From Coriobacteriaceae bacterium AM113-163 (GTDB lineage Bacteria > Actinomycetota > Coriobacteriia > Coriobacteriales > Coriobacteriaceae): a stretch of 18,344 bases of DNA. Under the pieces are notes generated by a model. The model ran no database searches. It was not told the DNA's origin and saw only the letters and a list, made by a program, of their open reading frames with translations. The position numbers and the translations under genes were made by a program. Positions 7,358 through 9,746 of this stretch are shown piece by piece. Position 1 is the first letter of the stretch. Every line of letters starts with the position of its first letter. The stretch covers positions 1 to 18,344 of the forward strand of contig JAQDWB010000028.1 of assembly GCA_027673765.1 (NCBI GenBank), read 5' to 3'.

Positions 7358-9409
7358 ATGCAGGAGGCATGGGAAGGCTTCAAGGAAGGCATCTGGACGG
7401 GAGAGGTTGACGTCCGAGACTTCATCCAGAAGAACTACACCCCCTACGAGGGCGACGAGTCGTTCCTCGCCGGCCCGACTGAGCGTACCAAGGAGCTGTG
7501 GGGCGAGGTTCTCGATCTGCTGCTCAAGGAGCGCGAGCAGGGCGGCGTCCTCGATATGGACACCAAGACTGTCACGGGTATCGTGAGCCACCCCGCTGGC
7601 TACATCGATAACGCCCATCGCGACAAGGAGACCATCGTCGGCCTCCAGACCGACAAGCCGCTCAAGCGTGCGCTGCACGTCAACGGTGGTATCCGCATCG
7701 CTTGCCAGGCTGCCAGCCAGCACGGCTACAAGGTCGACGAGAACGTTGTCGAGCGCTACACCTTCGAGCGCAAGACCCACAACGCCGGCGTCTTCGATGT
7801 CTACACCCCCGAGATGCGCGCCTGCCGTTCGGCCCACATCATCACCGGTCTGCCCGATGGCTATGGCCGCGGCCGCATCATCGGCGACTACCGTCGTGTC
7901 GCCCTGTACGGTGTCGACTATCTGATCAAGGACAAGGAGGCCCAGAAGGCTTCCACCCCGACGGTCATGACCGCCGACAACATCCGCGACCGTGAGGAGC
8001 TGCAGGAGCAGATTCGCGCCCTCGGCGAGCTCAAGATGATGGCCGAGACCTATGGTTTCGACATTTCCAACCCTGCTACCAACACGCAGGAGGCCATCCA
8101 GTGGATGTACTTCGCCTACCTCGCTGCCGTTAAGGAGCAGAACGGCGCCGCTATGTCCATCGGCCGTACCTCCACGTTCATCGACATCTACGCTGAGCGC
8201 GACCTTGCCAACGGTACCTTCACCGAGGAGCAGATCCAGGAGTTCGTGGATCACTTCATCATGAAGCTCCGCATGGTCAAGTTTGCCCGTACCCCCGAGT
8301 ACCAGGCCCTGTTTACCGGCGATCCGCAGTGGGTCACCGAGTCCATCGGCGGCATGGGTGTTGACGGCCGTACGCTCGTTACCAAGATGAGCTACCGCTA
8401 CCTGCACACGCTCGAGAACATGGGCACCAGCCCCGAGCCCAACATGACCGTTCTGTGGTCGACCCGTCTGCCCGAGAACTTCAAGAAGTTCTGCGCCAAG
8501 ACTTCTGTCGCCAGCTCCTCGATCCAGTACGAGAACGACGACCTCATGCGCGTTTACCACGGCGACGACTACGGCATCGCCTGCTGCGTGTCCTCCATGC
8601 GCATTGGCAAGGAGATGCAGTTCTTCGGCGCCCGTGCCAACCTGGCCAAGTGCCTGCTCTACGCACTCAACGGCGGTGTTGACGAGGTCTCCAAGAAGCA
8701 GGTCGGCCCCAAGTATCGCGCCGTCGAGGGCGATACGCTCGATTACGACGACGTTGTGGCCAAGTACAACGACATGATGAAGTGGCTTGCTGGCGTGTAC
8801 GTCAACTCGCTGAACATCATTCACTACATGCACGACAAGTATTGCTACGAGCGCATCCAGATGGCTCTGCACGACAAGCACGTGCATCGTTGGTTCGCTA
8901 CGGGCATCGCTGGCCTTTCCGTCGTGGCTGACTCCCTGTCCGCCATCAAATACGCCAAGGTCCACCCCGTCCGCGACGAGAACGGCATCATTGTCGACTT
9001 CGAGACCGAGGGCGAGTTCCCCAAGTACGGTAACGACGACGACCGCGTCGACCAGATCGCTCACGACGTTGTGCACCAGTTCATGGAGTACATCCGCATG
9101 AACGACACCTACCGCAACTCCGTGCCCACGACCTCGGTTCTGACCATCACCTCCAACGTCGTGTACGGCAAGAAGACCGGTTCTACGCCTGATGGCCGCA
9201 AGGCTGGCCAGCCCTTCGCCCCGGGTGCTAACCCCATGCACAAGCGCGATAGCCACGGCGCCATCGCTTCGCTGTCTTCGGTTTCCAAGCTCCCGTTCCG
9301 CGATGCTCAGGACGGCATCTCCAACACCTTCTCCATCATCCCGGGCGCGCTCGGCAAGGAGGACCAGGTGTTCTTTGGCGATATCGACCTTGATCAGCTG
9401 GGCGAGTAA
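7358..9409 (+). CDS. pflB: Pyruvate formate-lyase, catalytic chain lacking the glycyl-radical domain
   Basis: 683 residues, aligning by eye with E. coli PflB (760) from near its N-terminus to about residue 685. It converts pyruvate and CoA to acetyl-CoA and formate by a radical mechanism in the cytoplasm. Conserved blocks include [20 protein letters not shown] (19-38), [20 protein letters not shown] (164-183), the catalytic pair C409-C410 in IACCVSS, and GANPMHKRD near the end. The chain stops (TAA) after a short acidic tail, [10 protein letters not shown], just before the glycyl-radical domain begins in normal PFL. That domain is a separate gene 85 bases downstream. The ATG follows AGGAG with 12 bases between. 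Codon use is strongly C-ending, typical of high expression. The chain cannot itself carry the radical, so activity should need the partner chain plus PflA. Confidence 0.96.
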
Positions 9410-9410
9410 C

Positions 9411-9435
9411 TATTGTTAGTGCTATACTAACAATA
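9411..9435. promoter_or_regulatory. Perfect palindrome overlapping an extended -10 between the two pfl genes
   Basis: TATTGTTAGT (9411-9420) and ACTAACAATA (9426-9435) are exact inverted repeats around a 5-base loop, starting one base after the catalytic-chain stop codon. The centre reads TGCTATACT (9420-9428), an extended -10 element. It can be an RNA hairpin (processing or stability) or a repressor-covered promoter for the small chain. There is no T tract, so it is not a normal terminator. Confidence 0.65.
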
Positions 9436-9451
9436 ACGATTACTGATTAGC

Positions 9452-9471
9452 GCGCCGGTTTCGGCCGGCGC
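9452..9471 (+). promoter_or_regulatory. GC-rich hairpin ahead of the glycyl-radical subunit gene
   Basis: GCGCCGG... arms: GCGCCGG-type left arm at 9452-9458 and CCGGCGC at 9465-9471 form a 7-bp stem around TTTCGG. It lies 11 bases before the AAGGAG ribosome site of the small chain. No T tract follows. It may block exonucleases or influence small-chain translation. Confidence 0.45.
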
Positions 9472-9494
9472 CTATCGATCGAAGGAGACACATT

Positions 9495-9746
9495 ATGAAG
9501 GTTTCTGAAGTTTCCGAGACTCAGGCCGATAACCTGGTCCACATGCTCGACGCTTACGCCGAGAAGGGTGGCCACCACCTGAACATCAACGTCTTCAACC
9601 GTGAGACGCTGCTTGACGCTCAGGCTCACCCCGAGAAGTACCCGCAGCTGACCATCCGCGTTTCCGGCTATGCCGTGAACTTCCACACGCTCACCAAGGA
9701 GCAGCAGGACGAGGTCATTTCGCGTACCTTCCATGACAAGTTCTAA
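9495..9746 (+). CDS. Pyruvate formate-lyase glycyl-radical subunit (stand-alone C-terminal domain)
   Basis: 83 residues matching the last ~75 residues of normal [34 protein letters not shown] and [14 protein letters not shown] are near copies of the E. coli C-terminus. The radical glycine is G58 in RVSGYA. Strong ribosome site (AAGGAG, 7 bases before ATG). It sits in a different reading frame from the catalytic chain. The closest known precedents are YfiD/GrcA of E. coli and a phage T4 protein, spare radical domains that repair oxygen-cleaved PFL. Here, however, the main enzyme has no domain of its own, so this chain should be an obligatory subunit, not a spare. Residues 1-27 correspond to the linker before the radical loop (NLVHMLDAY aligning to NLAGLMDGY of E. 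coli). Confidence 0.93.

Follow-up and report, generated by a model that had tools for sequence, protein, structure and literature searches.

A pyruvate formate-lyase encoded as two chains in a Coriobacteriaceae genome, its relatives, and the cysteine module found with most of them

The split gene pair and its surroundings

The stretch of DNA analysed here, which we call the window, is 18,344 nucleotides long, comes from Coriobacteriaceae bacterium AM113-163, and carries a pyruvate formate-lyase (PFL) in two pieces as well as a gene for a PFL activating enzyme (Table 1). The large chain ends before the radical domain, in a short tail without cysteines, and its match to the PFL equivalog TIGR01255 (1084.8 bits, cut-off 994.2) covers profile positions 1-665 of 744 only, and the small chain takes positions 663-743 of the same profile. 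With Pfam and NCBIfam, too, the large chain reads as a PFL without the end of the profile and the small chain falls on the missing part. In alignments with E. coli PFL (1h16), residues 9-680 are taken by the large chain and residues 679-756 by the small chain, which places the cut at the equivalent of about residue 680. The catalytic cysteines of a PFL are present within IACCVS of the barrel chain and its radical glycine motif, RVSGY, is present as well but on the separate small chain; one chain of about 740-760 residues across the whole profile is not found. This split profile match is the trait that makes the enzyme of the window a variant of PFL. The initial annotation had described a 683-residue chain that has the cysteine pair and stops before the radical domain, and this is borne out by the open reading frame and by the coverage of TIGR01255; its further description of an 83-residue chain with RVSGYAV and G58, located 85 bases on in another frame with AAGGAG as its own ribosome site, was likewise found to be correct.

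Table 1. Coordinates of the split PFL genes and associated features (window positions unless a locus is named)
Feature	Position	Strand	Description
Large catalytic chain of split PFL	7358..9409	+	683 aa; Cys409-Cys410; TIGR01255
Inter-gene gap	9410..9494	+	85 bases; hairpins ~9411-9435 and 9450-9473; AAGGAG before 9495
Small radical subunit	9495..9746	+	83 aa; RVSGYAV, G58; no Cys; NCBIfam GrcA3
PFL activating enzyme (radical SAM)	16962..17801	+	279-aa reading; TIGR02493
Separate cysteine-module protein (example from a relative)	L020:6074-6307	+	between large-chain and radical-subunit genes

Both PFL genes are under purifying selection, with dN/dS of about 0.02-0.21 for each in six comparisons per gene, and over residues 1-683 (best segment) the large chain is 100% identical to that of Collinsella aerofaciens MCC370 (L001), which puts the window in Collinsella, near C. 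aerofaciens. The small chain belongs to the NCBIfam family NF038360, GrcA3 (165.7 bits, cut-off 158), a model of type exception whose name is also carried by Collinsella and Enorma proteins and whose title speaks of a cofactor and not of a subunit of a split enzyme; the existence of this model had gone unremarked in the initial annotation. It does not belong to GrcA/YfiD as defined by TIGR04365 (96.8 bits, cut-off 170), its scores are under the cut-offs of both GrcA and GrcA2, and it aligns to residues 66-125 of YfiD only. The activase, whose gene is 7.2 kb downstream of the small gene, is a PflA-family enzyme by TIGR02493 (283.4 bits, cut-off 231.75). Adjoining the activase gene there is a frame on the reverse strand (17895-18176) with an integrase-core domain (rve_2) that looks like a transposase fragment.

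The gap between the two PFL genes folds better than expected (9400-9494, z -3.37, with 1 of 200 shuffles folding as well), and a near-identical gap is present in 29 loci, the window included, in which it measures 84 or 85 bases. The two hairpins may set the relative expression of the two chains. Promoter-like and terminator-like sites were not found in the gap, and across 7000-10100 they were as frequent as in shuffles. Just 3' of the small gene, at 9769-9898, a perfect 31-nt inverted repeat surrounds a second palindrome of 20 nt; its exact 24-nt core recurs in 6 of 201 loci, all of them Collinsella, and it could represent a small mobile repeat or else a terminator.

Distribution and origin of the split form

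The initial annotation had suggested that relatives be searched for full-length and split PFL, and near the window it is the split form that prevails: among the best 80 of at least 585 PFL relatives in the GTDB contig collection 75 are split, two are full-length (L070 and L080), and three are cut by contig ends. By record title these loci are from Lachnospiraceae, Oscillospiraceae, Erysipelotrichaceae, Atopobiaceae, Coriobacteriaceae, and Spirochaetota, and many are metagenome bins. Thus the split form is not a local accident but a widespread variant of PFL, a spread that the initial annotation had missed. A larger set of 179 records, made up of the window and L001-L179 without L046 (which is split but was missed by the motif used), comprised 149 split, 27 full-length, and 3 contig-cut loci; it is biased toward relatives of the window's chain and contains repeats, and without L141-L150 the numbers are 141, 25, and 3. 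IACCVS is found in 148 of the 149 split loci and VACCVS in the other one, and RVSGYAV in all 149, in a selection that itself required CC[VI][SA] and a loose radical motif. The start-to-stop gaps between the large and the small gene range from -17 to 982 bases. Outside Coriobacteriaceae, in 70 of 88 split loci, an open reading frame with a cysteine motif that we take to be that of PFL activase starts at most 500 bases from the end of the small gene.

Whole genomes give a similar picture. An uncut split-type large chain was found in 39 of 43 Collinsella genomes, of which 30 were fetched and read as split, all arranged as in the window, three more were likewise split (G015, G020, and G040), and the remaining six (G027, G028, G030, G037, G038, and G041) have a separate radical-domain frame. 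As for the other four, the large chain is cut by a contig end in G033, G014 has an apparent full-length PFL of 62% identity, and in G036 and G042 neither a split-type chain nor a PFL was found. The split chain is the sole PFL-family match in 28 of the 39 genomes, including all 21 whose large chain is 99-100% identical to the window's, where no other PFL-family match was seen at E <= 0.001. In a class sample of 119 genomes, 41 had any match, 29 of them with a split pair and six with a full-length PFL, and none had both; the other matching genomes contained distant glycyl radical enzymes only. A full-length PFL elsewhere in the genome, which the initial annotation had named as the observation that would count against it, was therefore seen neither in the 21 nearest relatives nor beside a split pair in the class sample.

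Another 21 genomes, two of them again Coriobacteriaceae, were reached via the loci, and 19 of these were split and two full-length; one of the 19, Claveliimonas bilis (G153), has both forms. The class of G151 was represented by 196 genomes. Among the matches listed for them, 11 genomes were split (G324 seen in part only) and the other PFL-type matches, of 57-70% identity, reached the end of the query, apart from a small number of fragments that had stops or lay at a contig end, so that in this class full-length PFL is more common than split PFL. In one Lachnospiraceae genome with a split PFL (G159) there is a second, unlinked copy of the small subunit, of 79 aa (C1:900900-903200; L200:1026-1265, reverse strand), which could possibly be a spare supply.

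A 62-row tree of the catalytic core, built with the radical domain left aside (quick method, no bootstrap), needs two changes between split and full-length, as against a mean of 19.3 in shuffles, none of 500 shuffles being as low, and the starred branches alone force one change. The simplest reading of these sequences would be one fission followed by one re-fusion leading to L070 and L080. The joined radical domain of these two has the split-type DAQ, which is present in no other full-length locus, and the re-fusion is favoured by 30.2 log units with p-AU of 0.14; that is, a split clade without the two nested full-length chains is not rejected by the AU test (p 0.14). The view that the two chains are one PFL split by gene fission is thus upheld both by the end-to-end match to 1h16 and by the core tree. 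A distant split PFL on a long branch, in G362 (L201:335-2365 and 2349-2618), has overlapping reading frames and no cysteine tail, and it may be a second, independent fission.

A cysteine module in relatives

Beyond the conserved ALGK, the large chains of split PFLs continue into an additional acidic tail, and in most relatives cysteines are present either in this tail or in a separate small protein. The following counts are for 106 distinct loci, that is, the 149 split loci minus repeats with the same last 200 residues, which are related and not independent. The tail has two or more cysteines in 57 of them, none in 49, and exactly one in no case; cysteine makes up 5.1% of tail residues versus 1.2% of the body, and the small chain is free of cysteine in 104. 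When the tail has cysteines the gap to the small gene has a median of 65 and is at most 210 bases, and when it has none the median is 280, with 6 of 49 between 85 and 159. The long gaps contain a third gene. With one rule applied to all 106 loci, 57 have the cysteine tail, 43 the separate gene, six neither, and none both, which means that in 100 of 106 the module is present in exactly one of the two forms. Of the six with neither, four are C. aerofaciens-type variants and the others are L104 and L075; the species of the window is without the module. This third module of relatives had not been remarked upon in the initial annotation.

The separate protein (45 distinct sequences from 48 loci) is of 63-85 residues, lengths which are estimates for 8 of the 48 that have no ATG by the rule used. 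It has 2-4 cysteines per chain, lacks a radical loop, and ends in DC...AC..PTL..G.D, and its front shows homology with the beginning of the radical subunit (probability 95.9%, E 6.3e-9, 28 columns in a single hhalign comparison). Three module proteins that were scanned had no Pfam match below E 0.04 and, in NCBIfam, only a partial match to the front of GrcA3. Searching the PDB with a module protein gave chance-level matches only, and the L020 protein has 85 homologues that are hypothetical proteins where named. Of 18 pairs of the module gene, nine allowed dS to be computed and gave dN/dS of 0.01-0.14, the other nine being saturated; the module thus behaves as a real gene. In one genome (G321, L199:2858-3052) the module gene, with a GTG start, is 3' of the radical subunit instead of 5'.

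A profile of the module gave some match in 62 of the 196 genomes of the class of G151, and near-full-length matches only in G257, G223, G278, and G321, each of which has a split PFL. The match in G277 (positions 45-66, E 0.0024) is the cysteine tail of its large chain, one match in G248 is weak (35-63, E 0.0098), and all others are to the first 37 positions only, mostly in the radical domain of a split or full-length PFL. In the 43 Collinsella genomes only the front part of the profile was matched, and of the two genomes that have a nested full-length PFL, G161 gave nothing and G162 only the front part (E 0.01).

Tail and separate protein were exchanged repeatedly: the best tree of 86 rows requires nine changes (shuffles, mean 28.6 and least 22), three to four of which are forced by starred, that is, well-supported, branches. 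Repeated exchange of a covalent tether for a docking piece would suggest that the cysteines need to get to the docking site of the radical subunit. A predicted fold of the large chain with the module protein in the L020 reading, from a thin alignment, was of poor quality, with pLDDT 62.2 and pTM 0.65 and with residues 713-769 under 50. We tentatively propose, as a reading somewhat less likely than not, that the enzyme may be one of three parts in most organisms with a split PFL, in which the module, either tethered or docked by its own copy of the helix and strand, would bind the empty or swapped radical site and, acting on exposed cysteines or on the radical, serve as a redox-controlled cap, quencher, or metal site that controls loading and release of the radical subunit. 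If so, a glycyl radical enzyme would have, in the cysteine module, a part dedicated to its control, and the species of the window would work without one.

Proposed working of the two chains and competing explanations

Many gut anaerobes form acetyl-CoA with PFL, whose radical glycine is the site at which oxygen harms it. The window very probably encodes a working two-chain PFL. Since 75 of the best 80 loci are split, since the split chain is the sole PFL match in the 21 closest genomes, and since no genome of the class sample has both forms, the small chain most likely serves as an obligatory subunit and not as a spare part; the initial annotation had taken it as obligatory, and this view is supported. 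In the working that we propose, barrel, substrate sites, and Cys409-Cys410 would all come from the large chain. The small chain would contribute a helix for docking, a strand paired with the edge of the barrel (beta10 in E. coli PFL), and the loop with the glycyl radical, and would dock at the place of the C-terminal domain of an ordinary PFL. The activase would then put the radical on G58, most likely in the docked complex and not on the free chain, from where it would pass to the two cysteines just as it does in an ordinary PFL. In most relatives the cysteine module, as tail or as separate protein, accompanies the split enzyme. Docking would occur in the cell, and an oxygen-cut small chain could be replaced cheaply, as the initial annotation also proposed.

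A structural model is consistent with this. In G034, where the two frames coincide, a joined reading that runs from the large chain through a gap of 29 residues into the small chain has a predicted fold with pTM 0.87 in which 737 residues superpose on E. coli PFL at 1.6 A (model residues 1-795), the small chain lies in the place of the radical domain, and small-chain residues 8-23 form a predicted helix. Contact between the parts is favoured by modelling them as one chain with a linker, and the alignment of the model included 19 full-length PFLs; full-length PFLs in alignment A1 are 64-74% identical to the joined reading.

Published work bears on several of these steps. Formate is among the products listed for C. 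aerofaciens DSM 3979 (PMC9381525), and in Fannyhessea vaginae, a member of Atopobiaceae whose pflB may be split or full-length, grcA and pflB drop together, -17.96 and -14.31 fold (PMC11979175). An E. coli strain with PflB-G734A was described as forming formate with GrcA and none without it (PMC12338860). For E. coli PFL cut after residue 695 and combined with YfiD, PMC8683613 gives no measurable binding and 32-fold less radical, and activity equal to that of wild type once activated. The same paper states that YfiD acquires no radical without a PFL partner and that the KM is near 100 uM for free YfiD as compared with 1.4 uM for PFL (PMC8683613). By analogy, these YfiD data would point away from an activase acting on the free small chain, which the initial annotation had held possible. 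The E. coli combination, then, hardly assembles (PMC8683613), and the natural cut is about 15 residues earlier, with the predicted helix kept on the small chain. Half-site loading, with one radical subunit and one cysteine protein per dimer, was also considered and was set aside as in vivo data oppose half-site reactivity (PMC12338860).

Could the small protein instead be a GrcA/YfiD-type spare for a full-length PFL elsewhere and the 683-residue chain a truncated, inactive copy? The NCBIfam title, autonomous glycyl radical cofactor, is in its favour and so are the extra unlinked small gene of G159 and the full-length PFL that G153 has besides its split one. However, the 21 nearest genomes are without another PFL-family match and all 29 split genomes of the class sample are without a full-length PFL, the large chains retain their active-site cysteines under purifying selection, and the small chain falls under the GrcA and GrcA2 cut-offs and aligns to part of YfiD only. 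This explanation is very unlikely, and we reject it because neither the 21 nearest genomes nor the split genomes of the class sample have a full-length partner for such a spare. That the large chain has turned to another glycyl-radical reaction is highly improbable: the equivalog score above its cut-off, the identity of 64-74% between full-length PFLs and the joined reading, and the formate listed for C. aerofaciens (PMC9381525) all argue for PFL.

The two remaining explanations would do away with the split itself. One is that a single full-length PFL is still made from both genes, through a programmed frameshift, read-through of the stop, or splicing of RNA or protein, and G034, with a gap of 84 and both frames coinciding, could be read in this way. 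Even there three TAA codons, the stop of the large chain included, precede the small chain; moreover, the frame relation differs between loci, the gap length varies widely, and 43 of 106 distinct loci have a third gene between the two, which makes joining extremely improbable. The other is a frameshift, pseudogene, or assembly error, for which it can be said that both parts add up to one PFL. Its probability is next to negligible as the same layout recurs in 75 of the best 80 loci from many assemblies, with gaps that vary from -17 to 982 bases, and the small gene has its own start and AAGGAG and, like the large one, dN/dS well under 1; these findings already refute it.

PflB of E. coli (TIGR01255; 1h16, 2pfl) shares with the window enzyme the barrel, the cysteine pair, the radical loop, and the activase family but is one chain of 759 residues, whereas in the window enzyme the cut, at about 680, leaves to the small chain the helix and strand that precede the radical loop. 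GrcA/YfiD (TIGR04365; 6owr) is, like the small chain, a stand-alone radical domain used in trans. According to PMC8683613, YfiD is of 127 aa, has a disordered N-terminal half, and repairs full-length PFL. In contrast, the small chain at 83 aa has no such half and its large partner is encoded without a radical domain. In the PDB, 38lb (Formate acetyltransferase, 739 residues) aligns to residues 1-714 of a 716-residue Olsenella split large chain, the DCACAADASA tail included, and 38la, of the same title and 687 residues, ends near LGKE; neither was among the matches listed for the PDB queries with the small chain and the activase. Thus, given GrcA3 in NCBIfam and 38lb in the PDB, the small chain is known to annotators and one large chain to structural biologists. 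Among the papers listed in searches of an open-access library we found none on a natural two-chain PFL, nor the name GrcA3. What is new is the cysteine module with its tail-or-protein rule, for which there is no family or name in the libraries searched.

Small cysteine-bearing partners of a glycyl radical chain are also found as the beta and gamma subunits of benzylsuccinate synthase, and the small subunit of p-hydroxyphenylacetate decarboxylase is an Fe-S accessory subunit of a glycyl radical enzyme. The cysteine-module protein differs from Fe-S accessory subunits in having 2-4 cysteines, no Pfam family, and a start like that of the radical domain; binding of a [4Fe-4S] cluster by it would be hypothetical. 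A natural two-chain PFL makes it possible to test whether the activase needs the docked complex, whether a damaged radical domain can be exchanged, and by what it is kept in position, and the module is an uncharacterised companion of this central enzyme, present in 100 of the 106 distinct split loci and repeatedly swapped between tail and separate protein. Finally, a radical domain similar to the small chain (E <= 1e-5) was found in 1538 of 50,697 phage records, most of which are by name enterobacterial phages.
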